From: Rhodovulum visakhapatnamense
GTDB taxonomy: Bacteria; Pseudomonadota; Alphaproteobacteria; Rhodobacterales; Rhodobacteraceae
Reading direction: 5' to 3'
Assembly (NCBI RefSeq): GCF_004365965.1
Contig: NZ_SOEB01000018.1
Location: 23,223 to 87,222, forward strand
Length of the DNA stretch: 64,000 nt
Below are positions 12,623 through 29,556 of the stretch, piece after piece. The notes under the pieces were generated by a model, which was not told the DNA's origin, made no database searches, and saw only the letters and a program-made list of their open reading frames with translations. The translations under genes and the position numbers were made by a program. Each line of letters begins with the position of its first letter. Positions within the stretch are counted from its first letter, which is position 1.

Positions 12623-13519
12623 ATGCGCGCACGCCAGCTGGAAGTCTTTACCGCCATCATGCGGGCGGGCACCGTCACCGCCGCCGCGCGGATGCTGAAC
12701 ATCTCGCAACCGGCACTCAGCCAGATCCTGTTGCATACCGAGGACGAACTGGGCTTTCGGCTGTTCGACCGGATCAAGGGCCGCCTGCATCCCACGCCCG
12801 AGGCCATCGAGATCTTCCCCGAGGCCGAACGGATCTTCGCCGATCTCGAAGGGCTGCGCCGCAAGACCGCCGATCTGCGGCATGGCCGGGCCGGGCTGGT
12901 GCGGATCGCTGCCTCGACCCCGCCCGCAATGGCGGTGTTGCCCGGCGCGCTGGCCGCCTTCCGGGCGCGCCACCCCGAGATCCTGCTGCGGTCTCACATC
13001 GCGCCGCTGGCCTCGATGATCCGGATGCTGCGCGAGGGCGATGCCGGGCTGGCGCTGGCGCTTGACGACCGCCATGCCCCCGATATCGCGGCCGAGGTTC
13101 TGGGCCGCGTTGGCTTTGTCTGCCTGCTGCCTTCAGGCCATCCGCTGGCCGCGCAACACAGCCTGAGCCTTGCCGATCTGGCCGAGGCGCCGCTGATCTT
13201 CTATCGCAGCGACACCCGCCCCGCCGAAGAACTGGCCCGCGCGGCCCGCACCGGAGGCGTGACCCTGACCCCCAGTCTTGAAATCGACGTCTCGATCTCG
13301 GCCGTGGGCTTCGTGCAGGCGGGGCTTGGGCTGGCCCTTGTCGATGCGCTGCTGCCCTGGGCACAGTTTCAGGGCATTGCCGTGCGGCCGCTGGCGGCCA
13401 GCCCGACCGTGCCGCTGGCATTGCTGTCGGCCCGCAACCGCCCGCTGTCGCAGGCCGAAACCCGGCTTTGCGGCCATCTGCGCCAGACCTGCCGCGCCCT
13501 GCCCACGCTTTTGGCATAA
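12623..13519 (+). CDS. LysR family transcriptional regulator
   Basis: The 298-residue product begins MRARQLEVFTAIMRAGTVTAAARMLNISQPALSQILLHTEDELGFRLFDR, the standard LysR winged helix-turn-helix, followed by a periplasmic-binding-protein-like effector domain to the C-terminus. The start is the ATG at 12623; upstream in-frame sequence overlaps the divergent DAO gene and has no family match. The gene is divergent from the DAO gene and precedes the hyuAB cluster by 86 bp. Two copies of one 16-bp box flank it, the second overlapping its own stop codon. This is strong context for control of both flanking units, including itself. The inducer is unknown. Confidence 0.92.
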   Translation: MRARQLEVFTAIMRAGTVTAAARMLNISQPALSQILLHTEDELGFRLFDRIKGRLHPTPEAIEIFPEAERIFADLEGLRRKTADLRHGRAGLVRIAASTPPAMAVLPGALAAFRARHPEILLRSHIAPLASMIRMLREGDAGLALALDDRHAPDIAAEVLGRVGFVCLLPSGHPLAAQHSLSLADLAEAPLIFYRSDTRPAEELARAARTGGVTLTPSLEIDVSISAVGFVQAGLGLALVDALLPWAQFQGIAVRPLAASPTVPLALLSARNRPLSQAETRLCGHLRQTCRALPTLLA

Positions 13520-13533
13520 GCCCAACTTATGCC
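13513..13533. promoter_or_regulatory. candidate LysR-regulator operator, copy 2 (perfect palindrome)
   Basis: GGCATAAG and CTTATGCC form perfect 8-bp inverted arms around CCCAA. The inner 16 bases repeat the box found before lysR with one change. It spans the lysR stop codon (13517-13519) and lies about 72 bp before the hyuA start, a normal LysR activation-site distance. Confidence 0.62.
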
Positions 13534-13605
13534 GCCGGTCAGGATGCGTCTTGGACCGCGCCCCGGCCCTCGTGCCAGCCTGCGGCCCGACACAGCAAGG
13601 GACAG

Positions 13606-15681
13606 ATGGCCATGGATGCAAGCGGCGCTTTGCCAGCCGACTGGAAGGTCGGCGTCGATATCGGCGGCACCTTCATCGACTTCTGCGCGCTCGAGACGCG
13701 CTCGGGCCGGGTGGCCTCGCTGAAGGTGCTGACCACGCCCGACGAGCCGGGGGCCGAGCTGATGACGGGCCTCACCCTGCTGGCCGAGCGCGAGGGGCTG
13801 GCGCCCGCCGACATCACCCGCTTCGTCCATGGCACCACGGTCGGGATCAACACGGTGATCCAGCGCAAGGGCGCGCGGCTCGCACTTGTGACCAATGCGG
13901 GCTTCGAGGACGTGATCGAACTGGCGCGCCTCAGGATGCCCGACATGTATTCGCTGTTCTGTGCGCGCCCCGATCAGCTGATCGCCCGCGACATGGTGTT
14001 CGGCATTCCCGCGCGGCTGCGGGCCGACGGGCGGGAAACCCGCGCGCCGGACATGGCCGCAGTCGCCGGGGCCGTCGCCACGGCCCGCGCCCGGGGGGCC
14101 GAGGGCATCGTCGTGGCACTGCTGCATGCCTGGCGCGATGGCGCGCAGGAGACCGCGATCAAGGCGGAAATCGAACGGCTTGCGCCCGACCTTTTCGTCT
14201 TCACCTCGTCCGAGGTCTGGCCGGTGATCCGCGAATACGAACGCACGACGACCGCAATCCTCAACGGCTATGTCCACCCGCGCGTCGCGGGCTATCTGGG
14301 CGCGCTCGAAGACCGTCTGGCCGCCCGCGGCGTGCCCGCGCGCGCGCTTCTGACCAAGTCCAATGGCGGGGTGATGAACGCCGCCGAAGGCAAGACCGCC
14401 TGCGTGAACATGCTGCTGTCGGGCACCGCCTCGGGGGTGATCGGAGCCGCCTGGCTGGCGCGGCAGGCGGGCGAGGACAAGGTGCTGACGCTCGATATCG
14501 GCGGCACCTCGGCCGATTTCGCGCTGATCGTCGACGGCGCCGCGCAATTCGGCACGGGCGAGCTGGTGGGCGAGTTTCCGTTGCACATTCCGTCGGTCTC
14601 GGTCAGCTCGATCGGGATCGGCGGCGGGTCCATCGCCTGGATCGACGATCACGGCGTGCTGCGGGTGGGGCCTGACTCGGTCGGGTCGAGCCCCGGCCCT
14701 GCCTGCTATGGGCGCGGCGGCACCAAGGCGACGGTCACCGATGCGATGGCCGTCTGCGGCTGGCTTGGCCATGCGGAAATGGCCTATGGGCAGCTCGACA
14801 TGGACCCCGCGCTGGCCCGCGCGGCGGTGGGCGATCTGGCCGCGATCCTCGATCGGCCGCTGGCCGAAACGGCGCAGGCGATCCTCGATATCGCGGTTTC
14901 CGAGATGTTCGTCGAGGTCGAGAAACTGGCCTCGCGCGCGGGGGTCGACCTGCGCGAATTCACCCTGATGCCCTTCGGCGGCGGCGGCCCGATGCTGGGT
15001 GCGTTCCTGGCGCAGGAAATGGGCATCTCGCATGTGATGGCGCCGCGCCGTCCCGGCGTCGTCTCGGCGCTGGGCGGGCTGGTGGCCGATCTCAGGGGCG
15101 ATTTCATCCGCACGGTCTTTGCCCTGCCCTCGCCCGAGGTCCTGCCAAGCCTTCGGGCCTCGCTGAAAGACCTGATCGCCGAAGGCTGCCAATGGCTGAC
15201 CGATCAGGGCCATGATGGCGCGATCGATCTGATCCTGTCGGCCGACATGCGCTATCACGGGCAAAGCTACGAGATCGAGGTGACGCTCGACCCCGCCTGG
15301 ATCGAGGCGGGCGATCTGGGCGCCATCGCGGCAACCTTTCACGCGACCCATGCCCGGATCTACGATTTCGACGACCCGACGGGCACGGTCGAGATGGTCA
15401 ACCTGCGCCTGACCGCCATCGGCGCCGGTCCCGCGCTGAGCCTGCCCGAGGCCGACCCCGCAGAGGCCCCCGCGACGCCATTGAAGACCGTGCGGGTGCA
15501 CACCGGCGGGGCCCTGCGAGACGTAACGCTCTATTCGCGGGACGATCTGACCCCGGGCACCGGGTTCGAAGGCCCCGCCGTCATCGTCCAGGAAGACACC
15601 ACCGTCGCGATCCCGCCCGGCGCGCGGGCCCGTGTCGACCGCCACCTGAACCTTCATCTGCAGATCGAGGAGCGCGCCTGA
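13606..15681 (+). CDS. hyuA: hydantoinase/oxoprolinase family protein, subunit A
   Basis: The 691-residue product has the HyuA length and begins with the acetate-kinase-like phosphate fold VGVDIGGTFIDFCALE, followed by HGTTVGINTVIQRKGA near residue 75 and a second nucleotide segment LTLDIGGTSADFALI near residue 295. The family carries out ATP-dependent hydrolysis of 5-membered cyclic amides (hydantoins, 5-oxoproline) or ATP-dependent carboxylation, always with HyuB. The start at 13606 is preceded by AAGGGA; an ATG two codons later is possible. It is coupled to hyuB by a TGATG overlap and probably controlled through the palindrome upstream. The substrate cannot be read from sequence. Confidence 0.9.
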   Translation: MAMDASGALPADWKVGVDIGGTFIDFCALETRSGRVASLKVLTTPDEPGAELMTGLTLLAEREGLAPADITRFVHGTTVGINTVIQRKGARLALVTNAGFEDVIELARLRMPDMYSLFCARPDQLIARDMVFGIPARLRADGRETRAPDMAAVAGAVATARARGAEGIVVALLHAWRDGAQETAIKAEIERLAPDLFVFTSSEVWPVIREYERTTTAILNGYVHPRVAGYLGALEDRLAARGVPARALLTKSNGGVMNAAEGKTACVNMLLSGTASGVIGAAWLARQAGEDKVLTLDIGGTSADFALIVDGAAQFGTGELVGEFPLHIPSVSVSSIGIGGGSIAWIDDHGVLRVGPDSVGSSPGPACYGRGGTKATVTDAMAVCGWLGHAEMAYGQLDMDPALARAAVGDLAAILDRPLAETAQAILDIAVSEMFVEVEKLASRAGVDLREFTLMPFGGGGPMLGAFLAQEMGISHVMAPRRPGVVSALGGLVADLRGDFIRTVFALPSPEVLPSLRASLKDLIAEGCQWLTDQGHDGAIDLILSADMRYHGQSYEIEVTLDPAWIEAGDLGAIAATFHATHARIYDFDDPTGTVEMVNLRLTAIGAGPALSLPEADPAEAPATPLKTVRVHTGGALRDVTLYSRDDLTPGTGFEGPAVIVQEDTTVAIPPGARARVDRHLNLHLQIEERA

Positions 15682-17669
15682 TGTTTGATCGCATGACCCT
15701 TCAGGTTCTCGCGAACCATGCCCGTGCCGCGGCGGAGAACATGGCCCATACGCTGCACCGCACCGCCCATTCCGCCTTCGTGAAAGAGACGCAGGATTTC
15801 ACGGTGATGCTGATGGACCGCGCGGGTCAGACCTTTGCCGTGCCGATGGAGCTGGGTGCCACCTGGTATCCGGGGCTGACCTACGGGCGCGCCATCGACA
15901 TGGTGGACGACTACCGCCCCGGCGATGTGGCCTTCACCAACGACCCCTATTCGGGCCATGTCGCGACCCACGCCCCCGACACCCATCTGTGGAAACCGAT
16001 CTTCGCGGATGGCGAGATCGTCGCCTGGTCGGGCGGGCATATCCACAATACCGACATGGGCGGCGCCGTGCCCGCCTCGCTGTCGCGCGCGCTGACCGAG
16101 ATCCATCAGGAGGGCCTCCGCTTTCCGCCGATGAAGCTGGTGAACGAAGGCGTCTTCGACGCGCAGATCCTGCGGATAATGTCGACCAACGTGCGCAAGC
16201 CCGATCTGAACATCGGCGACATCAGGGCGCTGGTCGGCGCGCTGAACACGGGCGAACGCAAGGTCCATGCGATGATCGCCAAGTTCGGCAAGGCGGCGTT
16301 TCTGGACGGGGTGGCGGGGCTTCTCGATCATGCCGAGGCGCAGGCCCGCGCGGTTCTGGCGGCGATGCCCGACGGGACATGGGAGTTCGCCGACTACGCC
16401 GACGAAGATTCCGAAAAGGCCAATCCCTGCCGGCTGAAGCTGCGCCTCACGATCCGGGGCGACGAGGCCATCCTCGATTTCACCGGGTCCGATCCGCAAC
16501 TGGCCAGTTCGCTGAACGTGCCTTCGGGCGGCGATCCGCGCCATACGATGCTTTTGGTGGGCGTCTATTACGTCCTTTACACCCTGAACCCGCAGATCCT
16601 GCTGAACACCGGGCTCACGCGCCCCTTCACCTGCATCGCGCCCGAGGGCACGGTGCTGAACCCGGTGGCACCCGCCGCGGTCGGCATGCGGTCGCTGACC
16701 TGCGCGCGGCTGCGCTCGGTGATCTTCGGCGCCTTCTCGCAGGCGGTGCCCGACCGCCTGCCTGCAGCACCGGCGGGCAATAACTGCATCGTCAATGTGA
16801 TGACGACGGACGACCGCAGCCGCCGGACCGTTATCGCGGCGGTGAACCCGGTCGTGGGCGGCGGCGGCGGCATGCCCCATCGCGACGGCACCAATGGCTC
16901 GGGCGCCGATGCGGCCTACCTGAAAAACACGCCCATCGAGATCACCGAAACCGAAACCCCGGTCGAATTCGTGAAATACGGGCTCGCGCGCGATTCCGGC
17001 GGCCCGGGGCGCTGGCGCGGCGGGCTTGCGACCGAGATGGCGTTCCGCGTCTTCGCCCCGGATACCCGCATCACCGCGCGCAACCGCGACCGGTCCTTCT
17101 TTCGCCCCTGGGGCGTGCTGGGAGGCCGGGCGGCGGGGCTGTCCGATATGGTCGTCAATCCCGGCACCCCGGACGAGAGGCGTCTGGGCAATGTCGATAC
17201 CGCCGTGCTGCAACCGGGCGACGTGCTCGAGATCCGGTCGGCCGGGGGTGGCGGGCGCGGCGATCCGATGGCGCGCGAGCCCTGGCGGGTGGCCGAGGAT
17301 GTGGCGCGCGGCTATGTCTCGGCCAAGGCCGCCGAACGGGACTATGGCGTCGTGCTGCGCGACGGCACGGTCGACGGCCCCGCGACGGCGGCACTCCGCG
17401 CCCGCGCCACGCCCGCGCCGGGCCATTTCCATTTCGGCCCCGAGCGCGACGGTTACGAGGCGCAATGGACGCCCGCGGCCTATGACGCGCTGACCGCGAT
17501 CCTGTCGGCGCTGCCGATCCACTGGCGGTTCTTCGCCAAGACCGAGATCTTCGCGCGGATGGAGGGGCGCACCGGCGCCGAAGGGGTCGCGGCCGCGTTC
17601 GAGGCCGTCTGCACCCGCTTTCCGGAGCTGCCCCGGCCCCGCGCCGAAGCCGCCGAGGCCGCTGAATGA
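15681..17669 (+). CDS. hyuB: hydantoinase B/oxoprolinase family protein, subunit B
   Basis: The 662-residue partner of HyuA has typical family segments: FVKETQDFTVMLMDRAG near residue 34, the GDVAFTNDPYSGHVATHAPD segment near residue 79 and SGGHIHNTDMGG near residue 117, whose His and Asp residues are likely metal ligands. The C-terminal half carries the GGPGRWRGG segment. ATG 15681 overlaps the hyuA stop, and its own stop overlaps the start of the [2Fe-2S] gene by 4 bp. The last roughly 80 residues beyond the usual family core include an Ala/Glu-rich tail. Confidence 0.9.
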   Translation: MFDRMTLQVLANHARAAAENMAHTLHRTAHSAFVKETQDFTVMLMDRAGQTFAVPMELGATWYPGLTYGRAIDMVDDYRPGDVAFTNDPYSGHVATHAPDTHLWKPIFADGEIVAWSGGHIHNTDMGGAVPASLSRALTEIHQEGLRFPPMKLVNEGVFDAQILRIMSTNVRKPDLNIGDIRALVGALNTGERKVHAMIAKFGKAAFLDGVAGLLDHAEAQARAVLAAMPDGTWEFADYADEDSEKANPCRLKLRLTIRGDEAILDFTGSDPQLASSLNVPSGGDPRHTMLLVGVYYVLYTLNPQILLNTGLTRPFTCIAPEGTVLNPVAPAAVGMRSLTCARLRSVIFGAFSQAVPDRLPAAPAGNNCIVNVMTTDDRSRRTVIAAVNPVVGGGGGMPHRDGTNGSGADAAYLKNTPIEITETETPVEFVKYGLARDSGGPGRWRGGLATEMAFRVFAPDTRITARNRDRSFFRPWGVLGGRAAGLSDMVVNPGTPDERRLGNVDTAVLQPGDVLEIRSAGGGGRGDPMAREPWRVAEDVARGYVSAKAAERDYGVVLRDGTVDGPATAALRARATPAPGHFHFGPERDGYEAQWTPAAYDALTAILSALPIHWRFFAKTEIFARMEGRTGAEGVAAAFEAVCTRFPELPRPRAEAAEAAE

Positions 17670-17962
17670 CCGGCAGGCTCGTCCGGCTTGCGGAAAAGGG
17701 CCGCCTGCCCGTCCGCTTCACGCTGGATGGCAGCCCCTTTCAGGCGCTGGCGGGGGATACGGTTCTGACGGCGGTGCTGACATCGGCGCGAAGCCTGCGC
17801 GCGGGCGATGCAGGCCCCGAACGGCGCGCGGGCTTCTGCCTGATGGGCGCCTGTCAGGATTGCTGGATCTGGCAGGAAGACGGGCCGCGTCTGCGTGCCT
17901 GCTCGACACCGGTCGCGCCGGGCATGCGGCTTCTGTCGCAGCCGCCGGAAAGCTGGCCATGA
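17666..17962 (+). CDS. small (2Fe-2S)-binding subunit (opine oxidase gamma/HcnA-like)
   Basis: The 98-residue protein has a ferredoxin-like cluster site with Cys58, Cys63, Cys66 and Cys79, in the spacing C-x4-C-x2-C-x12-C. This is the plant-type [2Fe-2S] pattern seen in the small subunit of HCN synthase (HcnA), opine oxidases and heterotetrameric sarcosine or proline dehydrogenases. It would relay electrons between flavin centres. It overlaps hyuB by 4 bp upstream and the FAD subunit by 4 bp (ATGA) downstream, so all three are one translational unit. Confidence 0.85.
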   Translation: MTGRLVRLAEKGRLPVRFTLDGSPFQALAGDTVLTAVLTSARSLRAGDAGPERRAGFCLMGACQDCWIWQEDGPRLRACSTPVAPGMRLLSQPPESWP

Positions 17963-19341
17963 CCAGGGTCGTCATCGTCGGTGCGGGCCCCGCGGGCATC
18001 CGCGCGGCCGAAACGCTGGCCCAAGCCGGGCTTTGCCCTGTCGTGATCGACGAGGGCGCGCGCGCGGGCGGCCAGATCTACCGCCGCCCGCCCGAGGGCT
18101 TCACCCGCCCGCCCACCAGCCTTTATGGCAGCGAGGCCGCCAAGGCCGTCGCGCTGCACGGCTGTTTCGACGGGCTGGTCGCCCAGGGCCGGATCGACCA
18201 TCGCCCCGAAAGCTCGGTCGTGGCGATCCGGGACGGGGTGCTGCATGTCCTCGGGCCAGTCGGGCTTTTGCCCTGCCCCTTCGACCGGCTGATCCTTGCG
18301 ACCGGCGCGACCGACCGGCTGGCCCCGGTGCCCGGCTGGCAGGCGCCCGGTGTCTTTTCGCTGGGCGCCGCGCAGATCGCGCTGAAGGCCCAGGGCGTGG
18401 CGCTGGGGCGGCGGATCGTGCTGGCCGGTAGCGGGCCGCTTCTGACGCTGGTCGCGGCACAGCTGCAGGCGGCCGGCGCCGGGGTCGCCGCCGTTCTCGA
18501 CACCGCGCCGCTTGGGGCTCAGGCCCGGGCGCTGCCTCTGCTGGCGGCCCGGCCCGTCGTCACGCTGCGGGGGCTGGCGATGCGGGCCCGGCTCGGGCGG
18601 CTTTACCGCGCGGGCGTCACGCTTGAGCGGATCGAGGCCGATGGCGATGGCCCGACCGCGCTCTACTGGCGCGATGCGCGCGGACGGGCGCGGGAGACCC
18701 CTTGCGATGCAGTCGCGCTTGGCTGGCATCTGCGCTCTGAAACCCATCTGGCCGAACTGGCGGGCGCGCGCCTTGTCCACGATCCGCTCTGGTCGCAATG
18801 GCGGCCCGGGGCCGACCCGATGGGCCGGGCGGGTGCCGGGCTTTATCTCGCGGGCGACGGGCTCTGCCTGCTTGGCGCCGACGGTGCCGAGATCGCCGGG
18901 CGGCTGGCCGCCATCGCCTGCCTTCAGGATCTGGGCCTGCCCCACCCCGCCCCCGATCTGCGCCGCCTCAGGCGCCTGCACCGCTTTGCAACCGGCCTCG
19001 CGCGGGCCTTTCCCTACCCCGCCGCCGGGGTCGCGGCGCTGCCCGACAGCGCCGTCATCTGCCGCTGCGAGGGCATTACCGCGGGCGCGCTGCGCGAAAG
19101 CGCCGCCCATGGCGGGGCCGAGGCCAACCGGGTCAAGTCGCTGTCGCGGGGGGGCATGGGCCGCTGTCAGGGCCGCTATTGCCAGATCGCGGTGACCGAG
19201 ATCCTGGCCGCCGCCACCGGGATCGCTCCGGCCGAGGCGGGGCGGATGCGGGCCCAGGCCCCGGCGCGGCCGCTGCCGGTCTCGGCCTGCCTGGCCGATC
19301 CTGCCCCATCGCAGACGATCCTGCCATCCGGGCGGCGCTGA
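17959..19341 (+). CDS. FAD/NAD(P)-binding dehydrogenase subunit with C-terminal [2Fe-2S] BFD-like domain (OoxA/HcnB-like)
   Basis: The 460-residue protein starts with the FAD motif TRVVIVGAGPAGIRAAETL and continues with a two-dinucleotide-domain fold. Near residues 360-420 it has a BFD-like [2Fe-2S] site: Cys-Arg-Cys in ICRCEGIT, then two cysteines in GRCQGRYC. This order matches HcnB and the large subunit of opine oxidases, which oxidise N-substituted amino acids with an electron acceptor other than oxygen. Its expected catalytic partner is a DAO-type flavoprotein; the nearest is at 11407-12519, across lysR and hyuAB. The start is fixed by the ATGA overlap with the [2Fe-2S] gene. Confidence 0.85.
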   Translation: MTRVVIVGAGPAGIRAAETLAQAGLCPVVIDEGARAGGQIYRRPPEGFTRPPTSLYGSEAAKAVALHGCFDGLVAQGRIDHRPESSVVAIRDGVLHVLGPVGLLPCPFDRLILATGATDRLAPVPGWQAPGVFSLGAAQIALKAQGVALGRRIVLAGSGPLLTLVAAQLQAAGAGVAAVLDTAPLGAQARALPLLAARPVVTLRGLAMRARLGRLYRAGVTLERIEADGDGPTALYWRDARGRARETPCDAVALGWHLRSETHLAELAGARLVHDPLWSQWRPGADPMGRAGAGLYLAGDGLCLLGADGAEIAGRLAAIACLQDLGLPHPAPDLRRLRRLHRFATGLARAFPYPAAGVAALPDSAVICRCEGITAGALRESAAHGGAEANRVKSLSRGGMGRCQGRYCQIAVTEILAAATGIAPAEAGRMRAQAPARPLPVSACLADPAPSQTILPSGRR

Positions 19342-19430
19342 CAGCGGAATATGCTGCGCGCCCCGGCGCTTCGGCAGGAAGATACGGGGGCCATCGGCTA
19401 GGATCGGCCCAAGATCACAGCGGAGGAGCC

Positions 19431-20894
19431 ATGTCGCTCAGTTTCGACCCGGCACGCCTGTCCCTGCCGGAGGGCCATTTCATCGGCGGGCGCTATCTGC
19501 CCGGCCCCGACGCCATCGAGATCCGCGCGCCCTCGGACGGCCGCATCCTTGGCGCGATCCCGCAGGCCGATGCCGAGACCGTCGACCGCGCGGTCGAGGC
19601 CGCCCGCTCAGCGCTCGGCCGTTCGGGCTGGGGCGATCTGCCCCCGCGCGACCGGGTCCGGGCGCTGCAGGCCTGGGCCGATCTGATCGAGGCCGAGGCC
19701 GAGGACCTGGCCCGGATCGAGGCCGTGGCCTCGTCCCGGCCGATTGCCGAGGCGGTGCCGGGCGATGTCGCGATCCTGGCCGAACAGATCCGCTTTTTCG
19801 CCGAATTCGCCGACAAGGAGGGCGGCAGCCTGGTGCCGACCGGCGCCGGGCGGATGGGGATGATCGCGTCCGAACCCTATGGCGTGGTCGGCGCCATCAC
19901 GCCCTGGAACTTCCCGCTGTCGATGGCGGGCTGGAAGCTTGGCCCGGCGCTGGCCGCGGGCAATGCGGTGGTGCTGAAACCCTCCGAGATGACGCCGTTC
20001 TCGACGCTGCGCCTGGCCGAGCTGTCGGTGCGCGCGGGCCTGCCGGAGGGGCTGATCAACATCGTGCTCGGCGACGGGCCGAACACCGGCGCGGCGCTGG
20101 TCGCCCATCCCGGCATCGCCAAGGTGTCGTTCACCGGCTCGACCCGGGCGGGCGCCGCGATCATGGAGAACATCGTGCGCAGCGGCATCAAGCCGATGAC
20201 GCTGGAACTGGGCGGCAAGTCGCCGCAACTGGTCTTTGCCGATGCCGATCTGGACCTTGCCGCCGACTGCATCCTGCGCGGCATCACCGCCAATGCCGGG
20301 CAGGTCTGCGTCGCCGGATCGCGCCTGATCGCCGAAGCCTCGGTGGCCGAGGCGTTGACGGCGAAGATCGCCGCGAAGATGGCCGGGATCGTTCCCGGCC
20401 CGACCTGGGAGGCGGCCACCGGCTATTCGCCGATCATCTCGGAGGCGCAGTTGTCGCGCATCGACAGCCTCGTGCAGGCCGCCCGGGCCGGTGGTGCCGA
20501 GGTGCTGTGCGGCGGCAACCGGCTCGACCGGCCGGGCAGCTTCTATGCGCCCACGATCCTGACCGGGCTTGGCGCGGACTCGCCCGCCATCACCGAAGAG
20601 ATCTTCGGCCCGGTCCTGACCGTCGAAACCTTCAAGACCGAGGACGAGGCGCTGGCCCTGGCCCGCCATCCGACCTATGGGCTCTGTTCGGGGGTCTTCA
20701 CCCGCGATCTGTCGCGCGCGCTGCGGATGACCCGCGCGATCGAGGCGGGCACGGTCTGGGTCAACCGCTATGGCCGGTCGCGCGACCATATCCTGCCCAC
20801 CGGGGGCTGGAAATCCTCAGGCCTCGGCAAGGATCTGGGCCGCGAGGCCTATCTGGCCAACCGGCGCCAGAAATCCGTTCTGATCGACCTTTGA
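19431..20894 (+). CDS. aldehyde dehydrogenase family protein
   Basis: The 487-residue NAD(P)-dependent aldehyde dehydrogenase has GAITPWNFPLSM near residue 150 (coenzyme and Asn site), the catalytic Glu in LELGGKSPQ near residue 260 and the nucleophilic Cys in GQVCVAGSR near residue 294. ATG 19431 follows CGGAGGAG. It lies 89 bp after the FAD subunit and 23 bp before the next gene, so it is likely in the same operon. It could oxidise an aldehyde released by the amine-oxidising enzymes, but family sequence alone does not fix the substrate. Confidence 0.9.
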   Translation: MSLSFDPARLSLPEGHFIGGRYLPGPDAIEIRAPSDGRILGAIPQADAETVDRAVEAARSALGRSGWGDLPPRDRVRALQAWADLIEAEAEDLARIEAVASSRPIAEAVPGDVAILAEQIRFFAEFADKEGGSLVPTGAGRMGMIASEPYGVVGAITPWNFPLSMAGWKLGPALAAGNAVVLKPSEMTPFSTLRLAELSVRAGLPEGLINIVLGDGPNTGAALVAHPGIAKVSFTGSTRAGAAIMENIVRSGIKPMTLELGGKSPQLVFADADLDLAADCILRGITANAGQVCVAGSRLIAEASVAEALTAKIAAKMAGIVPGPTWEAATGYSPIISEAQLSRIDSLVQAARAGGAEVLCGGNRLDRPGSFYAPTILTGLGADSPAITEEIFGPVLTVETFKTEDEALALARHPTYGLCSGVFTRDLSRALRMTRAIEAGTVWVNRYGRSRDHILPTGGWKSSGLGKDLGREAYLANRRQKSVLIDL

Positions 20895-20917
20895 GCCGCG
20901 CTTTTCAGGAGACGACC

Positions 20918-21964
20918 ATGACCACTCACAAGATCGCCCTGATCCCCGGCGACGGAATCGGCGTCGACGTGACCGATGCCGCGATCGAGATCGCCACCGC
21001 CGCCGCCCGGCGCTTCGGCTTCACGCTGGCGACCGAGACCTTCCCCTGGTCCTGCGACCACTACCTGGCCACGGGGCGGATGATGCCCGAGGACGGGATC
21101 GAGACGCTGCGCGGCTTCGACGCGATCTATCTGGGCGCGGTCGGCTGGCCCGCCACGGTGCCGGATTCCGTCTCGCTGCACGGGCTTTTGCTGCCGATCC
21201 GCAAGGCCTTCGCGCAATATGCCAATATCCGGCCGCACCGGCTGCTGAAGGGCGTCGAGGGGCCGCTGAGATCGGACGGCTTCGACATTCTCTGCATCCG
21301 CGAAAATACCGAGGGCGAATATTCCGGCGCGGGCGGGCGCGTGCATCAGGGCACGCCCGGCGAGGTCGCGATCCAGACCTCGGTCTTCACCCGGATGGGC
21401 GTCGAACGCATCCTGCGCTTTGGCTTCGAACAGGCGCGCGCGCGGCGCGGGCACCTGACCTCGGTGACGAAGTCGAACGCCCAGCAGTATTCGATGGTCT
21501 TCTGGGACGAGGTCACCCGCGAGGTCGCGGCCGACTATCCGGACGTGAGCGTCGAACCCATGCATATCGACGCGATGGCCGCGCGGATGGTGATGGCGCC
21601 CGAAAGCCTTGACGTGATCGTCGCCTCGAACCTCTTCGGCGACATCCTGACCGACCTGGGGGCGGCCATTCAGGGGGGCCTGGGCTTTGCGGCCTCGGCC
21701 AATATCAACCCCGACCGCAGCGCGCCCTCGATGTTCGAGCCCGTGCACGGCTCGGCCCCCGATATCGCAGGCAAGGACATCGCCAACCCCATTGCCGCGA
21801 TCTGGTCGGCGGCGATGATGCTCGATCATCTGGGCGAGGCCGAGGCCGCCGCCGCGATCCTTGCCGCCATCGAGGCCGCCACGGCGCAAGGCATCGGCAC
21901 CCGGCCCGGCAGCCATTCCACATCCGCGATCACCCAAGCCGTCAAGGCGGCGCTGGAGGCCTGA
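20918..21964 (+). CDS. tartrate dehydrogenase/decarboxylase-type member of the isopropylmalate dehydrogenase family
   Basis: The 348-residue product has the family's N-terminal PGDGIGVDV, the TTAD-like [10 protein letters not shown] segment near residue 130, Lys in [11 protein letters not shown] near residue 190 and metal-binding Asp residues in [13 protein letters not shown] near residue 232. The segment [36 protein letters not shown] is characteristic of tartrate/D-malate dehydrogenases rather than LeuB or isocitrate dehydrogenase. ATG 20918 follows CAGGAGA. It probably acts on a 2-hydroxy-diacid produced in this pathway. Direct tartrate use is possible but not shown. Confidence 0.86.
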
Positions 21965-21965
21965 G

Positions 21966-23405
21966 ATGACCCTGAACGATCCCGAACTTTTCCGCGAGGC
22001 CGCGCTGATCGGCGGCCAGTGGACCGCCCGCGCCGACATGGCGGTGACCGATCCCGCGACGGGGGCCACCATCGGCCACATGCCCGATTGCACCGCCGCC
22101 GAGACCGAGGCCGCCATTGCCGCCGCCGCGGCCGCCATGGGACCCTGGAAGGCCCGCAGCCATGCCGAACGCGCCGATCTGCTGATGGCCTGGTACGACC
22201 TGATGCGCGCCCATGAGGCCGATCTGGCCCGGATCCTGACCGCCGAGCAGGGCAAGCCACTGGCCGAGGCCCTGGGCGAGATCCGCTATGGCGCCAGCTT
22301 CGTGCGCTGGTTCGCGGAAGAAGCGCGCCGGATCAATGGCGGCATCATCCCCTCGCCCACGCCCGACAAGCGCATCCTGACCCTCAAGGAACCCGTGGGC
22401 GTCTGCGCCATCATCACGCCCTGGAACTTCCCCAACGCGATGATCACCCGCAAGGTCGCCCCGGCGCTGGCCGCGGGCTGCACCGTGGTCATCAAGCCCT
22501 CGGACTTCACCCCCTATTCGGCGCTGGCGCTTGGGGTTCTGGCAGACCGCGCGGGCATCCCCGCGGGCGTCATCAACATTCTGACCGGCCGCCCCGAAGA
22601 GATCGGCGCGACGCTGACCGGGTCCCCCATCGTGCGCAAGCTGTCCTTCACCGGCTCGACCCGGGTGGGGTCTCTGCTGATGGAGCAATGCGCGCCCACG
22701 GTGAAACGCCTCAGCCTGGAACTGGGCGGCAACGCGCCTTTCATCGTCTTCGACGACGCCGATCTCGACGCGGCGGTCGAGGGCGCGATGGCCTCGAAAT
22801 TCCGCAATGGCGGGCAGACCTGCGTCTGTTCGAACCGGATCCTCGTGCAGGCGGGCATTCACGACGCCTTCGTCGGGAAACTGGCGGCCCGGGTCGCGGC
22901 GCTGAAGGTGGGGGCGGGCACCGAGGACGGCACCCAGATCGGCCCGATGATCAACGCCGCCGCCATCGCCAAGATCGAGGCCCATGTGGCCGACGCGCTG
23001 GCGAAGGGCGCAACCCGCGCGACGCCCGCCCGCGATCTGCCGCCGCAATTCGCCGATCCGGTGGTCCTGACCGGCGCCACGACCGCGATGCGGCTGGCCT
23101 CGGAGGAAACCTTCGGCCCGGTGGCGCCCATCTTCCGCTTTAAGACCGAGGCCGAGGCGCTGGCCATCGCCAATGGCACGCCCTACGGGCTGGCCGCCTA
23201 TTTCTACACCCGCGATCTGGCCCGCGCCTTCCGGGTCGGCGAGGCGCTCGAATTCGGGCTCGTCGGGCTCAATACCGGCGCGGTCAGCCACGAGGTCTCG
23301 CCCTTCGGCGGCGTCAAGACCTCGGGGCTCGGGCGCGAAGGCGCCCAGGCCGGGATCGAGGAATACCTTGAAACCAAAGCCTTCCATCTGGGCGGCCTGC
23401 TCTGA
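21966..23405 (+). CDS. NAD(P)-dependent succinate-semialdehyde dehydrogenase-like aldehyde dehydrogenase
   Basis: The 479-residue product belongs to the GabD branch of aldehyde dehydrogenases. It has CAIITPWNFPNAMITRK near residue 145, the catalytic Glu in LELGGNAPFIVF near residue 245 and the nucleophile in GQTCVCSN, a double-Cys site typical of GabD. It starts directly after the previous stop (TGAG-ATG, 1 bp apart). A GabD-like enzyme would feed a C4 semialdehyde into succinate and so into the TCA cycle. It is the last gene before a strong terminator. Confidence 0.88.
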   Translation: MTLNDPELFREAALIGGQWTARADMAVTDPATGATIGHMPDCTAAETEAAIAAAAAAMGPWKARSHAERADLLMAWYDLMRAHEADLARILTAEQGKPLAEALGEIRYGASFVRWFAEEARRINGGIIPSPTPDKRILTLKEPVGVCAIITPWNFPNAMITRKVAPALAAGCTVVIKPSDFTPYSALALGVLADRAGIPAGVINILTGRPEEIGATLTGSPIVRKLSFTGSTRVGSLLMEQCAPTVKRLSLELGGNAPFIVFDDADLDAAVEGAMASKFRNGGQTCVCSNRILVQAGIHDAFVGKLAARVAALKVGAGTEDGTQIGPMINAAAIAKIEAHVADALAKGATRATPARDLPPQFADPVVLTGATTAMRLASEETFGPVAPIFRFKTEAEALAIANGTPYGLAAYFYTRDLARAFRVGEALEFGLVGLNTGAVSHEVSPFGGVKTSGLGREGAQAGIEEYLETKAFHLGGLL

Positions 23406-23531: not shown

Positions 23532-25916
23532 ATGCAAGCTGTCCTGGCGGTTCTCGCCACCCTCCTGATCCCTGGGATTGCAACTGCCGAGACCGAGCGT
23601 TTCGCGCTTCATACCGACCTCGACCATGTCTGGACGATGACCGCCGCGGCGCTGGTCTTCTTGATGCAGGCGGGCTTCCTGCTGCTTGAGGCCGGGCAGG
23701 TCCGGTCCAAGAACTCGATCAACGTCGCCCAGAAAAACCTGGTCGATTTCATCCTGTCGACCCTGGCCTTCGGCTCGGTCGGCTTCGCGCTGATGTTCGG
23801 CCCCAGCCTCGGCGGATGGATCGGGTTTTCGGCCGATTACGCCTTCTTCAACACACAAGGCGACTGGTCGCTGACCTTCTTCGTCTTCCAGCTGATGTTC
23901 TGCGGCACCGCCGCCACCATCGTCTCGGGTGCGGTCGCCGAACGCGCGACGATGTCGGGCTACATGATCTGCACCCTGCTGATCGGCTGCCTGATCTACC
24001 CGGTCTCGGGCCACTGGGCCTGGGGCGGGCTTTTGTCGGGCGAGTCCGAGGGCTGGCTCGCGCGGCTCGGATTCATCGACTTCGCGGGGTCGACCGTGGT
24101 GCATTCGGTCGGCGCCTGGGTGGCCCTGGCCGCGATCATCCTTATCGGGCCGCGGCTCGGGCGCTATGACGCGGCGGGGCGGCCCGTCGCATTGCACGGG
24201 CATTCGCCGGTGCTGTCGACGCTGGGCGCGCTGATCCTCTGGATCGGCTGGATCGGGTTCAATGGCGGGTCGACCAATATCGGATCGGGCGCCATTGCCG
24301 GGATCGTCGCCAACACCATCGTCTCGGGCGCGGCGGGCGGCGCGGCCGGGCTGATCATCGGCGCGCGCAAGACCGGCATCTACCGGCCCGAGCATCTGAT
24401 CAACGGCTCGCTGGCCGGTCTGGTCGGCATCACCGCGGGCTGCGACGCGGTCACGACGCAATCGGCCTTCCTGATCGGGGCCAGCGCGGGCGCCGTTGCC
24501 TTTCTCGCGCATGAGATGCTGGACCGGGTCTGGCGGCTCGACGACCCGCTCGGGGCGATTTCGGTGCACGGCGTCGCAGGCGCCTGGGGCACGCTGATGG
24601 CGGGCGCCCTGGCCCGGCCCGATGCGTTGATGGCAGGCGGCCGCCTGACCCAGGTCGGTGTGCAGGCGCTGGGCGTGGGCGCGGTCTTCGTCTGGGCCTT
24701 CGGCACCGGCTTTGTTCTGCTCCGGATTGCGGACGCTCTGCTGCCCGCGCCGGACGGGCCGCGCGGCGGGCTGCGCGTTTCGCGCGAGGCCGAAGAGGCC
24801 GGGTTGAACATTTCCGAACATGACGCGCCGCTGGGGCTGTCGGGGCTGGTGCGGGCGATGGCCCGCATCGCCGAGAACCCCTCGGCCGAAATCGGCCGGA
24901 TCGACACCGAACCGGGCGAGGAATCGCACGAGGCCGCAACGCTGTTCAACGGCATCGCCGAGAACATCCGCCTCAAGGCCGAAACCGACCGGCGGCTTGC
25001 CGACCAGTCCGAAGCGTTGCTGGCCGATCTCGCTGGCACCATCGAGGCGGTGCTGGACGGGCGGCTCGACCGGCGCATGCGGATCGGGCATGAGGGCCCC
25101 TTCGCCCGGGTGCCGGGGTCGATCAATGCGATGATCGGGTCGGTCGAGACGATGGTCGGCGAGATCGCCGCCTCGGCGCAGTCGGTCGCCGCCCATGCCG
25201 CGCAGCTGAGCGCCCAGAGCGTGACGCTGACCTCAGGCTCGACCGATCAGGCCCGCCAGATCGGGTCCGTTTCGGAAGAGATGGCCGAGCTGCGCGCCGA
25301 GGTCGACCGCAACGGCGCACGGCTGGAACAGGCGTTGCTGAATTCGGAACTGGCGCGGCAGGGCGCGGCCGATGCCGCCGAGATTTCGCGGCGCGCCGTG
25401 GCCGGGATGGAACGGGCCAGCGCCGCGATCGGGCGTATCGCCGCCGGGCTCGAGATGATCGACGAGGTCGCCTTTGCCACCCGCCTGCTCAGCCTCAACG
25501 CCTCGGTCGAGGCGGCCCGGGCGAGCGGCACGGCCGGCGCGGGCTTTTCGGTGGTGGCGCAGGAGGTGCGCAGTCTTGCCGAAACCACGACCGCCTCGGC
25601 CCGCGATATCCGCGGGATGCTGAACGGCGTGCGCGAGACCGTTTCCGGCGCGGTCCGCGAGGTCGCGGGCACCGACCACGCGCTGGAGGACATTCGCGGT
25701 CGCATCGCCTCGAACGCGACGCTTCTGGCCGAGGTCGAACAGATGGAGACGCGCTCGCGCACCCTCCTGGCCCGTGTCGAAACCACGCTGTCCGATCTGG
25801 CGCAGTCCTCGCGGAGGGTACTGGAAGAGGCGGACCAGACCCGGCAGGTGGCACGCGAGCTGCATTCGAACGCCGCGCGCACAACCGCCACGGTCGAACG
25901 CTACCGCGCGGCCTGA
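23532..25916 (+). CDS. ammonium transporter (Amt) fused to a methyl-accepting chemotaxis-type signalling domain
   Basis: The 794-residue product has two parts. Residues 1-410 are a full Amt/Rh channel with a leader-like N-terminus and about 11 membrane segments. The ammonium-site Asp183 and the twin pore histidines His191 (TVVH) and His346 (SVHGVAG) are present. Residues about 460-530 look HAMP-like (LDGRLDRRMRIGHEGPFARVPGSI). Residues about 550-790 are a coiled-coil chemoreceptor domain with the hairpin IDEVAFATRLLSLNASVEAARAS from residue 643, then GAGFSVVAQEVRSLAE. The canonical QTNLLALNAAxEAARAGE tip is altered (ATRLL, NASVEA). It is probably an ammonium sensor, or a transporter reporting to CheW/CheA. 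No che genes are near. The ribosome site is weak. A dead IS abuts its stop. Confidence 0.9.
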   Translation: MQAVLAVLATLLIPGIATAETERFALHTDLDHVWTMTAAALVFLMQAGFLLLEAGQVRSKNSINVAQKNLVDFILSTLAFGSVGFALMFGPSLGGWIGFSADYAFFNTQGDWSLTFFVFQLMFCGTAATIVSGAVAERATMSGYMICTLLIGCLIYPVSGHWAWGGLLSGESEGWLARLGFIDFAGSTVVHSVGAWVALAAIILIGPRLGRYDAAGRPVALHGHSPVLSTLGALILWIGWIGFNGGSTNIGSGAIAGIVANTIVSGAAGGAAGLIIGARKTGIYRPEHLINGSLAGLVGITAGCDAVTTQSAFLIGASAGAVAFLAHEMLDRVWRLDDPLGAISVHGVAGAWGTLMAGALARPDALMAGGRLTQVGVQALGVGAVFVWAFGTGFVLLRIADALLPAPDGPRGGLRVSREAEEAGLNISEHDAPLGLSGLVRAMARIAENPSAEIGRIDTEPGEESHEAATLFNGIAENIRLKAETDRRLADQSEALLADLAGTIEAVLDGRLDRRMRIGHEGPFARVPGSINAMIGSVETMVGEIAASAQSVAAHAAQLSAQSVTLTSGSTDQARQIGSVSEEMAELRAEVDRNGARLEQALLNSELARQGAADAAEISRRAVAGMERASAAIGRIAAGLEMIDEVAFATRLLSLNASVEAARASGTAGAGFSVVAQEVRSLAETTTASARDIRGMLNGVRETVSGAVREVAGTDHALEDIRGRIASNATLLAEVEQMETRSRTLLARVETTLSDLAQSSRRVLEEADQTRQVARELHSNAARTTATVERYRAA

Positions 25917-26970: not shown

Positions 26971-29556
26971 CTAGCCCGCCTGTGCGCTGCGCATGGGCGG
27001 AAGGACCGGGGTCTCTTCGACGCCGAGCCCCGGAAAGACACCCGCCGCCGACCGGCCCTCGACCTCGAGGAAGTCCTCGCGCGAGAGCGGGTGGCCCAGA
27101 AGGTACCCCTGTGCCTCGTTGCACCCGGCCTCCATCACCTGAAGCAGTTGTTCGCGGGTCTCGATCCCCTCCGCAACCACGTCGATCCCCATGCTGCCGC
27201 AGAGCATGCAGACCGCGCGCACGACCGCGGCGCCGCCCAGATCGCTGTCGATCTCCTGCACGAAGGAGGCGTCGATCTTGACCTTGTCGAAGGAGAAGAT
27301 CCTGAGATAGCGCAGCGACGAATACCCGGTGCCGAAATCGTCGAGCGAGATCCGGACGCCCATCCCCTTCAGGGCGGTCAGCTTGTCCTTCACATCGTCG
27401 GTATCCTCGAGCAGCACGCCTTCGGTGATTTCCAGCGCCAGCCGCGCGGGCGGCAAACCGCTCGATTTCAGGGCCTGGGTCACATCGCCGACGATGTCGT
27501 GGCGCCGGAACTGCACCGGCGACAGGTTGATGGCGACACTCAGCCGGTCGGGCCAGGAGGCCGCCTCGGTGCAGGCCATCCGCAGCACAAGCGCCCCGAG
27601 CGGCACGATCAGCCCCAGTTCCTCGGCCATGGGGACGAATTCGCAGGGCGGGACCAGGCCGCGCGTCGGGTGCCGCCAGCGCAGCAGCGCCTCGGCCCCG
27701 GTGATCCGCCCGGTATCGAGATTGACCAGCGGCTGGAACAGCATCGAGAACTGGTCCAGCTCGATGGCGCGCTTGAGATCGGCTTCCAGCTTGATCAGCG
27801 CATTCTGCCGGTCCAGCATGTCCCTGTCGAACAGAAGGCACTGGCCCCGGCCCGCGGATTTGGCCGCGTAAAGCGCGATATCGGCCCGCGACATGATCTT
27901 TTCGGCGCGATCGCCATGCTCGGGCGCGAGCGCGATGCCGACGCTGGCCCCGATATCCGCCAGACGCCCGTCGATCCTGAAGGGTTGCGACAGCAGGTCG
28001 ATGATCCGGTCGCCAAGCCCAAGCGCGCTGTCGGGTTGCTGCTGGCCGATCTGGATCACGGCGAACTCGTCGCCGCCGAACCGCGCCACCGTGTCGCCCT
28101 CGCGCACCGCGCCCTGCAGACGCTCGGACACATGGCGCAACAGCTGATCGCCTGCGGCATGGCCAAGCGTGTCGTTGACATGCTTGAACCGGTCGAGATC
28201 GACGAACAGGATCGCCGCAGGCCGGTTCGGGTCGGCGGTGGCAATGGCGTAATCGATGCTGTCGGCAAAGGCCCGCCGGTTCGGAAGCCCGGTCAGCGTG
28301 TCGTGCCTGGCCATGTGGAGGGCCTGTTCTTCCTGATCGACCCGTTCGGAAATGTCGCTGGCAATCATCATCCAGCCGCCGGGCACGGGCTGGACCTGCA
28401 GCAGGACATGCCGACCGTCGTCCAGTTCCCACGATGCCGAATCCGACCCGCGCTGCGCGATCAGGGCCTTCATGCGGCTGGCAAAAGCCGCCCCGCCGCC
28501 GGGGCGCGCGGCGCTCATCCGGCAGCCGACCTGCGTCAAAAGCCGGTCCAGCGTCACCGAACCCTGCCCGGAAGACAGCTCTTTCGGCATGCCGAAGAAG
28601 GACCAGAACATCGCGTTCGCCACCAGAAGCTTGCCGGTTCCGTCGAACATGCACAGGCCCGCCGGCATGTTCTGCACGGTCTCGGACAGAAGCGCCCGCT
28701 GGGTCTTCATCTCGGCGGCCAGCCGCCGGGTCTCGACGATGCTGTCGCGCAGCGCATGGGCCGAATGGGACAGGGTCGACAGCTCGTTCCGTTCGGTGCC
28801 GAAATCCGGCAGCCGGACCGTATCGTCCCCGCCAAGAAGTCGGCGCAGCGCATCGTTCAGAGCGATCAGCGGAAGGCTCAGGCGCCGCACGACCCAGATC
28901 GCCGCGCCAAGGGCGAGTGCTCCGGCGGCCGCCAGCGTCAGCACGATCAGCCGCAGGCTTTGTTCGACGATGATGTCCTGGCGCTCCAGCGCGACCGCCG
29001 TATCGGCACGGGTCAGCGTGGTCATGTCAGTGATTCGCGCGGTCAGATCGGCCGCCATCTGTTCGACGCCCACTTCGAAATGCTCTTTTGCCTTCTCGAA
29101 GTCCCCGTCCTCCGCCAGCCTGTCGGCCACGCGAAAACTGGCAAGATAGCCGTCCCAGTCCCGTTGAAGATCGTCGACGATCCGCGTTTCCTCGACCGAC
29201 AGGCCGAGCGACCTGAGCCGCAGCAGCGCCTGTCCGAAGGCCGAGGTCGCCACGCGCTGCGCCTCGCGCAGATCCTCACGCTCGAACGGATCGACCTCGA
29301 GCACGGAGCGTTCTGCGGCAATTTCGTGATCGCTCAGCGCATTCTCGATGTCATTGATGGCAAAGAGACGCGAGACCGAGACATCGCCGACAGACCGCGC
29401 CGAGGCGCCCAGTGCCTTGAATTCCACATATCCCACGACGCCAAGCGTCACGCTTGTCAGGAAAAGCGCCAGCATGATCCCGATCAGGCGCACCCCGAGC
29501 CCCGTCGCCGCAAGGCGATTGACGAGCCGCCCCCGCCCGCTGCGCGTTTCCGTCAT
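26971..29556 (-). CDS. membrane GGDEF-EAL cyclic-di-GMP signalling protein
   Basis: The 861-residue protein is anchored by two membrane segments (residues about 20-42 and 193-217) flanking a periplasmic four-helix-type sensor region, then a HAMP-like segment and a PAS-like segment (MPAGLCMFDGTGKLLVANAMFWSFF near residues 300-325). The diguanylate cyclase domain keeps GGDEF at residues 494-498. The phosphodiesterase domain keeps EAL at 622-624 and DDFGTGYSSL. Both catalytic signatures look intact, so it could make or break c-di-GMP. ATG 29556 follows GGAGACGGAC. It is convergent with the Amt-chemoreceptor across a dead IS whose end lies 1 bp from its stop codon, so the native C-terminus may have been changed by that insertion. 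Confidence 0.92.
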   Translation of the reverse strand: MTETRSGRGRLVNRLAATGLGVRLIGIMLALFLTSVTLGVVGYVEFKALGASARSVGDVSVSRLFAINDIENALSDHEIAAERSVLEVDPFEREDLREAQRVATSAFGQALLRLRSLGLSVEETRIVDDLQRDWDGYLASFRVADRLAEDGDFEKAKEHFEVGVEQMAADLTARITDMTTLTRADTAVALERQDIIVEQSLRLIVLTLAAAGALALGAAIWVVRRLSLPLIALNDALRRLLGGDDTVRLPDFGTERNELSTLSHSAHALRDSIVETRRLAAEMKTQRALLSETVQNMPAGLCMFDGTGKLLVANAMFWSFFGMPKELSSGQGSVTLDRLLTQVGCRMSAARPGGGAAFASRMKALIAQRGSDSASWELDDGRHVLLQVQPVPGGWMMIASDISERVDQEEQALHMARHDTLTGLPNRRAFADSIDYAIATADPNRPAAILFVDLDRFKHVNDTLGHAAGDQLLRHVSERLQGAVREGDTVARFGGDEFAVIQIGQQQPDSALGLGDRIIDLLSQPFRIDGRLADIGASVGIALAPEHGDRAEKIMSRADIALYAAKSAGRGQCLLFDRDMLDRQNALIKLEADLKRAIELDQFSMLFQPLVNLDTGRITGAEALLRWRHPTRGLVPPCEFVPMAEELGLIVPLGALVLRMACTEAASWPDRLSVAINLSPVQFRRHDIVGDVTQALKSSGLPPARLALEITEGVLLEDTDDVKDKLTALKGMGVRISLDDFGTGYSSLRYLRIFSFDKVKIDASFVQEIDSDLGGAAVVRAVCMLCGSMGIDVVAEGIETREQLLQVMEAGCNEAQGYLLGHPLSREDFLEVEGRSAAGVFPGLGVEETPVLPPMRSAQAG

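Follow-up and report, generated by a model that had tools for sequence, protein, structure and literature searches.

The window, a stretch of 64,000 nucleotides from Rhodovulum visakhapatnamense, encodes a fusion of an ammonium channel (Amt) to a chemoreceptor signalling domain (MCP), and we consider it fairly probable that the protein is an ammonium-binding receptor whose remodelled tip connects it to the ordinary flagellar array, with a sensor Amt replacing the usual ligand-binding domain. Pfam matches Ammonium_transp (PF00909, E 2.6e-108) over the Amt domain given in Table 1 and MCPsignal (PF00015) over residues 607-773 (E 1.9e-21, 77.1 bits against a cut-off of 34.6), and Asp183, His191 and His346 are present, the His pair in alignment with Ks-Amt5. 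This bears out the claim of an earlier note on this DNA that one 794-residue frame holds an intact Amt and a chemoreceptor.

Table 1. Features of the Amt-chemoreceptor fusion, in positions of the window
Feature	Position	Strand	Basis and remarks
Amt-HAMP-HAMP-MCP fusion gene, 794 aa	23532..25916	+	open for 794 codons, no stop; Pfam
Amt domain, residues 33-431	23628..24824	+	Pfam; alignments to Ks-Amt5 and Sd-Amt1 (by eye); model and fold search
First HAMP-like segment, residues 437-486, right after the Amt C-tail	24840..24989	+	family profile against HAMP profile; model helices
Second HAMP-like segment, residues 496-545	25017..25166	+	aligned with the pre-coil segment of receptors of the same genome; model helices
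Chemoreceptor coiled coil, residues 546-794	25167..25913	+	Pfam; alignment; model helices 527-663 and 667-792
Hairpin turn, residues 664-671 (ASGTAGAG)	25521..25544	+	one residue longer than in controls

Is the fusion genuine? The gene's contig, C18, belongs to a 4.4 Mb genome that is 99.98% complete, and the closest named relative, Rhodovulum kholense, has the same 794-codon frame with 96% identity over its full length and the same order of flanking genes; a further genome of the genus with a 96% match (G497) is evidently that of R. kholense, and the two are counted as one witness. Among the best 120 homologues listed, drawn from a capped set of candidates, 118 carry both PF00909 and PF00015, one of them representing the protein's own cluster, and the other two are Amt-histidine kinases. 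As the R. kholense frame is identical in extent and 118 of these 120 are fused, a frameshift or an assembly join, which the earlier note had kept in view, is excluded. The dN/dS between the two Rhodovulum orthologs is 0.105, and the protein is genuine, under constraint and one of a widespread family of fusions.

This family is broad yet sporadic. Counting our own genome each time, Amt-MCPs occur in 5 of 248 genomes of the family (six matched, G200 being an unfused Amt), in 6 of 390 of the order sample and in 2 of 16 of the genus, in searches thresholded at E 1e-100, 1e-110 and 1e-90, so that more divergent fusions may be missed. Two members lie on plasmids, one of Tritonibacter mobilis and one, conjugative, of Phaeobacter inhibens P88 (L097:8022-10487), where the annotation names only an ammonium transporter; both have a canonical turn. 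A scan of viral contigs gave no match. Other Amt fusions among the homologues have GGDEF, GGDEF-EAL or kinase outputs. In our search of the open-licence PMC literature we recognised no paper describing an Amt-chemoreceptor fusion. A 2009 review reportedly treated Amt proteins as sensors. Amt modules joined to other domains have been observed earlier, according to PMC5764959.

By its site pattern, the Amt half is of the sensor type. Its predicted ammonium site consists of Q46, E53, N69, D72, F73, T129 and S132, aligned with Q24, E31, N47, D50, T51, T109 and T112 of Ks-Amt5, the Amt-histidine kinase of Kuenenia stuttgartiensis; five of the seven are identical, one is Ser for Thr, and Thr51 corresponds to Phe73. 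With the Shewanella denitrificans receptor Sd-Amt1 (PDB 8qj3/8qj4/8qpf) the pattern QENDFTS is identical at all seven positions in an alignment read by eye, and a fold search with the predicted model ranks 6eu6 ('Sensor Amt') and 8qj4/8qj3 ('Receptor Sd-Amt1', ON/OFF) highest in the PDB. The Q, E, N, D, T and S of this site are the same in 118/118 Amt-MCPs; the stand-alone Amt of the genome, on contig C2, reads TYCITAV and differs from the fusion at every one of the seven positions. The pattern is not exclusive to fusions: two unfused Amts in locus L078 also have it, and therefore it marks an Amt branch, not the fusion itself. The intramembrane ammonium site of Ks-Amt5 is reported to be missing from assimilatory Amts (PMC5764959).

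Could the protein nonetheless be a transporter, with uptake as its function and a receptor-like tail that localises it or reports flux? The pore would allow it: the F123/F243 gate, the W164/S247 filter and the H191/H346 pair are all intact in alignment with Ks-Amt5, D183 does not vary among the 50 sequences of a family alignment, and twin-His, Phe gate and selectivity filter are intact in all 118 Amt-MCPs. However, a separate Amt is present on C2, the fused Amt has the sensor-type pattern, and Ks-Amt5 is described as binding ammonium without efficient transport with all pore motifs kept (PMC5764959), which together make a mere transporter very improbable. Only one of the three pore-blocking residues of Ks-Amt5 is kept (F27 as F49), Y30 and F34 being replaced by Leu52 and Gln56. 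Ammonium would be the ligand of the fusion, and because the site of Ks-Amt5 and Sd-Amt1 is kept and Ks-Amt5 binds without efficient transport, binding would be the signal, making the flux that the earlier note had suggested as the stimulus less likely; the fusion may still transport ammonium. The arrangement typical of an assimilatory AmtB, a stand-alone channel beside glnK, is absent: the Amt is fused, and no P-II protein was found among the ten neighbouring frames scanned.

Like the fusion, Ks-Amt5 has an Amt as ammonium sensor with a fused output, and it is the top fold match in the PDB, but its output is a histidine kinase, and no HAMP is reported in PMC5764959. The sequence of Sd-Amt1 matches an Amt-GGDEF protein over its entire length, which makes a diguanylate cyclase its very probable output, where the fusion has a chemoreceptor. 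Within the genus, an Amt-GGDEF-EAL protein (G570, L092) shares six of the seven site residues (QENDVTS), yet differs from the fusion in its GGDEF-EAL output and in a linker that gives no HAMP match.

The connection between channel and coiled coil is predicted to consist of two HAMP-like segments in series; the earlier note had spoken of a HAMP-like segment, and such a segment is present, in fact twice, although Pfam reports no HAMP match in either one of this protein. The likeness emerges at the level of the family. A profile of linkers (148, of which 102 were used after filtering; 131 of the 148 come from Amt-MCPs) matches a HAMP profile of non-Amt receptors with a probability of 95.8 and E 7e-9 in a one-against-one comparison. 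Singly, 37 of the 148 linkers match the HAMP profile at E < 0.01, against 0/148 after shuffling; the fusion's own linker stays above E 0.01 in this single-sequence test. By output, these matches are found in 35/131 MCP linkers, 2/5 kinase linkers and 0/10 cyclase linkers, and we rejected a HAMP-like link common to the cyclase fusions, where the likeness is one by eye only. In a Pfam scan of ten segments the linkers of two relatives exceeded the HAMP cut-off and three matches fell below it. The AlphaFold model (mean pLDDT 83, joint blocks 48-76) has short helices that match the HAMP-like segments.

The coil aligns without gaps with 11 receptors of the same genome in a multiple alignment, except for one residue at the turn; pairwise, residues 541-792 are likewise gap-free to L002, L003 and L004 except for the turn residue, and more distant receptors take small local gaps. 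With Tsr/Tar-like receptors and the main receptors of this genome the protein shares HAMP-like segment, coil and tip, gap-free bar the turn, the tip having been aligned to solved receptors as well. It differs from the Tsr/Tar-like type in its polytopic channel sensor of a trimeric family, in the additional turn residue, and in three replacements (Q374A, N376R and R394A in Tsr numbering). The genome's main class of receptors is presumably 36H, and the fusion has its coil length; the receptors of the C20 and C36 clusters are without one heptad on each side, and the fusion coil is two heptads longer. According to a review, an array takes in only receptors that match in length (PMC12654446), and since the coil is of the main length class, the likely partner would be the CheA/CheW of cluster C6, which is likely the main flagellar kinase complex of the cell. 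No receptor gene belonging to the C6 cluster itself was found in the frames scanned.

A partnership of another kind had been put forward in the earlier note, which proposed a private CheW/CheA pair and made its reading depend on che genes in the genome. Such genes exist, with three CheA genes and 11 CheW-domain matches in a genome-wide search, and the search for orphans turned up a triple-CheW protein on contig C19, with no CheA match there. The protein could accordingly serve a private CheA/CheW or this orphan, apart from the motility array. This would suit its altered tip, the number of CheA genes and CheW domains, the orphan pairing of a PAS-MCP with the triple-CheW protein, and an Amt-MCP of genome G017 that stands beside a che cluster, albeit with a canonical turn. 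However, contig C18 has neither a CheA nor a CheW match and no che gene at all, and the coil is two heptads off the C20 and C36 receptors. Moreover, G127 and G306, whose Amt-MCPs have turns of 14 and 15 residues, possess one CheA and one free CheW each, closest to the C6 proteins, which argues against a private pair; we regard it as decidedly unlikely.

CheA would be the output of the fusion. It is present in 10/10 Amt-MCP genomes (nine genera) against 113 of the 248 genomes of the family sample; within this sample the figures are 5/5 for Amt-MCP genomes and 108/243 for the others (Fisher P 0.019, not corrected for kinship). The Amt-MCP genomes counted are those found in the family, order and genus samples. 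Flagellin was present in 9/9 Amt-MCP genomes checked. The methylation consensus has no strict match in residues 481-794 and a single relaxed one, at the tip.

How would such a tip meet its kinase? The turn, measured by pattern as the number of residues that separate the VEA motif from the GF motif, has eight residues canonically and nine in the fusion. It has eight in 113/113 non-Amt receptors nearest to the fusion's signalling domain and in 106/106 receptors nearest to a distant odd-turn member, the latter comprising only 23 distinct tip strings; all 219 were picked by signalling-domain similarity, not randomly. The insertion is also absent from 15/15 other aligned receptors of the same genome, a set that leaves aside one match at a contig end, whose tip cannot be read, and a divergent MCP-like frame on C20. 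Across 118 Amt-MCPs the turn ranges from 5 to 16 residues, with eight in 72 and a non-canonical length in 46; the pattern assigned 115 of these, and by eye P0015 and P0030 have eight and P0048 has nine.

A quick tree of Amt domains, with some long branches and with three locus rows that duplicate database proteins, places every odd turn except one in a single clade of 64 rows (SH-aLRT 99), comprising 48 odd turns of 7 to 16 residues, 15 canonical ones and one unassigned, while 69 of the 70 rows outside are canonical. The exception, P0115, has a turn of five residues and sits beside P0116, which has eight; its short turn could reflect an error in the sequence. Most of the odd-clade members that carry a name are Rhodobacterales, one being labelled Granulosicoccus, and this mostly rhodobacteral clade presents an unexpected loosening of the chemoreceptor tip.

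Judged by alignment, the strongest changes of the tip are the length of the turn and a lost arginine, since the position of Tsr R394 is A670 in the fusion; both go beyond what the earlier note had listed. Its claim of an altered tip stands for ATRLL in place of QTNLL, where Tsr Q374 and N376 correspond to A649 and R651 and the Ala and Arg are found in 0/113 controls, Arg at the 376 position being common among Amt-MCPs (23/70 canonical, 17/45 odd). NASVEA for NAAVEA is ordinary, as 82/113 controls have Ser there. The R394 position is basic in 111/113 controls, 57/70 canonical Amt-MCPs and 12/45 odd-turn Amt-MCPs. Kept are N381, E385 and R388 of Tsr, which we take to have a role in the trimer, as N656, E660 and R663, together with E402 and R404 as E678 and R680; in this order the five positions are conserved in 45, 44, 42, 44 and 43 of 45 odd-turn members. 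In Tsr of E. coli, R394 contacts CheA P3/P4 and CheW (PMC6746300, PMC6954272), and E402 and R404 contact CheW (PMC6954272). The CheW surface on which the earlier note's reading hinged is thus retained at E678 and R680 and altered at A670.

These changes could also mean that the receptor is decoupled: its tip would no longer control CheA, and the coil would bind some other partner or just dilute the array. Turn lengths anywhere between 7 and 16 residues in a single clade, and a basic residue at the R394 position in so few odd-turn members compared with controls, are what such a loss would lead one to expect. Speaking against it are the conservation of the five positions above, the presence of CheA in every Amt-MCP genome tested, and a comparison with R. 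kholense, in which the 51 tip residues 640-690 have no amino-acid change and eight synonymous ones; we therefore think decoupling unlikely.

The favoured reading, an ammonium-binding receptor in the flagellar array, suggests the following course of signalling. Ammonium would enter the Amt vestibule and bind the intramembrane site, whereupon the C-terminal tail of the Amt would shift; the shift would pass through the two HAMP-like segments to the coiled coil, and the tip would alter CheA activity in the ordinary array formed with the C6 CheA/CheW, by which ammonium itself would probably guide swimming. Amts are trimeric, and the working unit of receptors is a trimer of dimers; the six chains of such a unit could be provided by two Amt trimers, and the rebuilt turn would tune how the unit is seated on the kinase baseplate. 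Counted against this reading are the replacement of R394 by Ala, the altered Q374 and N376 positions, the lack of a strict methylation match in the coil, the absence of che genes from contig C18, a pore that is intact and keeps only one of the Ks-Amt5 blocking residues, and the mismatch between a trimeric Amt and the dimeric symmetry of HAMP and MCP. A bolder version, to which we would give only a modest chance, holds that the clade broke the fixed length of the tip, with Amt trimers templating the trimer of dimers and turns of 9-16 residues making new contacts to the ordinary CheA/CheW baseplate; if true, lengthened turns would give receptors a second means of holding and controlling the kinase.

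No dedicated receptor of this kind for ammonium taxis is known to us in bacteria, nor did one turn up in the open-licence PMC search, and the family would open ammonium taxis to direct testing. The fusion would also couple a trimeric channel with an array of dimeric receptors, a question of symmetry already raised for the kinase modules of Ks-Amt5 on their trimer, and its relatives are naturally occurring variants in the chemoreceptor's most rigid part, with which to ask what CheA control requires of the tip.

Upstream of the fusion gene and co-directional with it lie genes for hydantoinase/oxoprolinase A and B, a 2Fe-2S protein, an opine- or sarcosine-oxidase-like subunit, two aldehyde dehydrogenases and an isopropylmalate-dehydrogenase-like protein (window 13468-23405, +), the last of which is followed after 126 bases by the start of the Amt-MCP; from HyuB to the second aldehyde dehydrogenase the order is the same in R. 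kholense. Downstream, a convergent gene (26971-29556, -) encodes a GGDEF-EAL protein with a 4HB_MCP sensor and PAS. The fusion may have a tie to the catabolic genes or to the GGDEF-EAL gene; outside our genome, this arrangement was seen only in R. kholense.

Elsewhere in the genome, the chemoreceptor on C19 contains PAS repeats and its gene overlaps that of the triple-CheW protein, which has 530 aa (L069:3823-8219); three CheW domains in one frame occur also in G497. On C20, a 581-aa frame adjoining cheB (L067:3505-5250) has no Pfam match and contains a degenerate stretch resembling a receptor tip. Among loci L026-L033, L045, L079-L082, L091 and L093-L096, a che cluster was found near an Amt-MCP only at L082 when flanks of at most 8-10 kb were searched with the Che proteins of our genome (E 1e-10 or 1e-8), L081 and L082 being cut by contig ends. 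The truncated Amt-MCP at L082 (G017:C95), of canonical turn, adjoins genes for CheY, CheA, CheR, CheB, CheW and an MCP. In Desulfobacter latus (L040:3051-11057), an Amt fusion with an EAL-like tail is immediately preceded by CheA-, CheB- and CheW-like genes.
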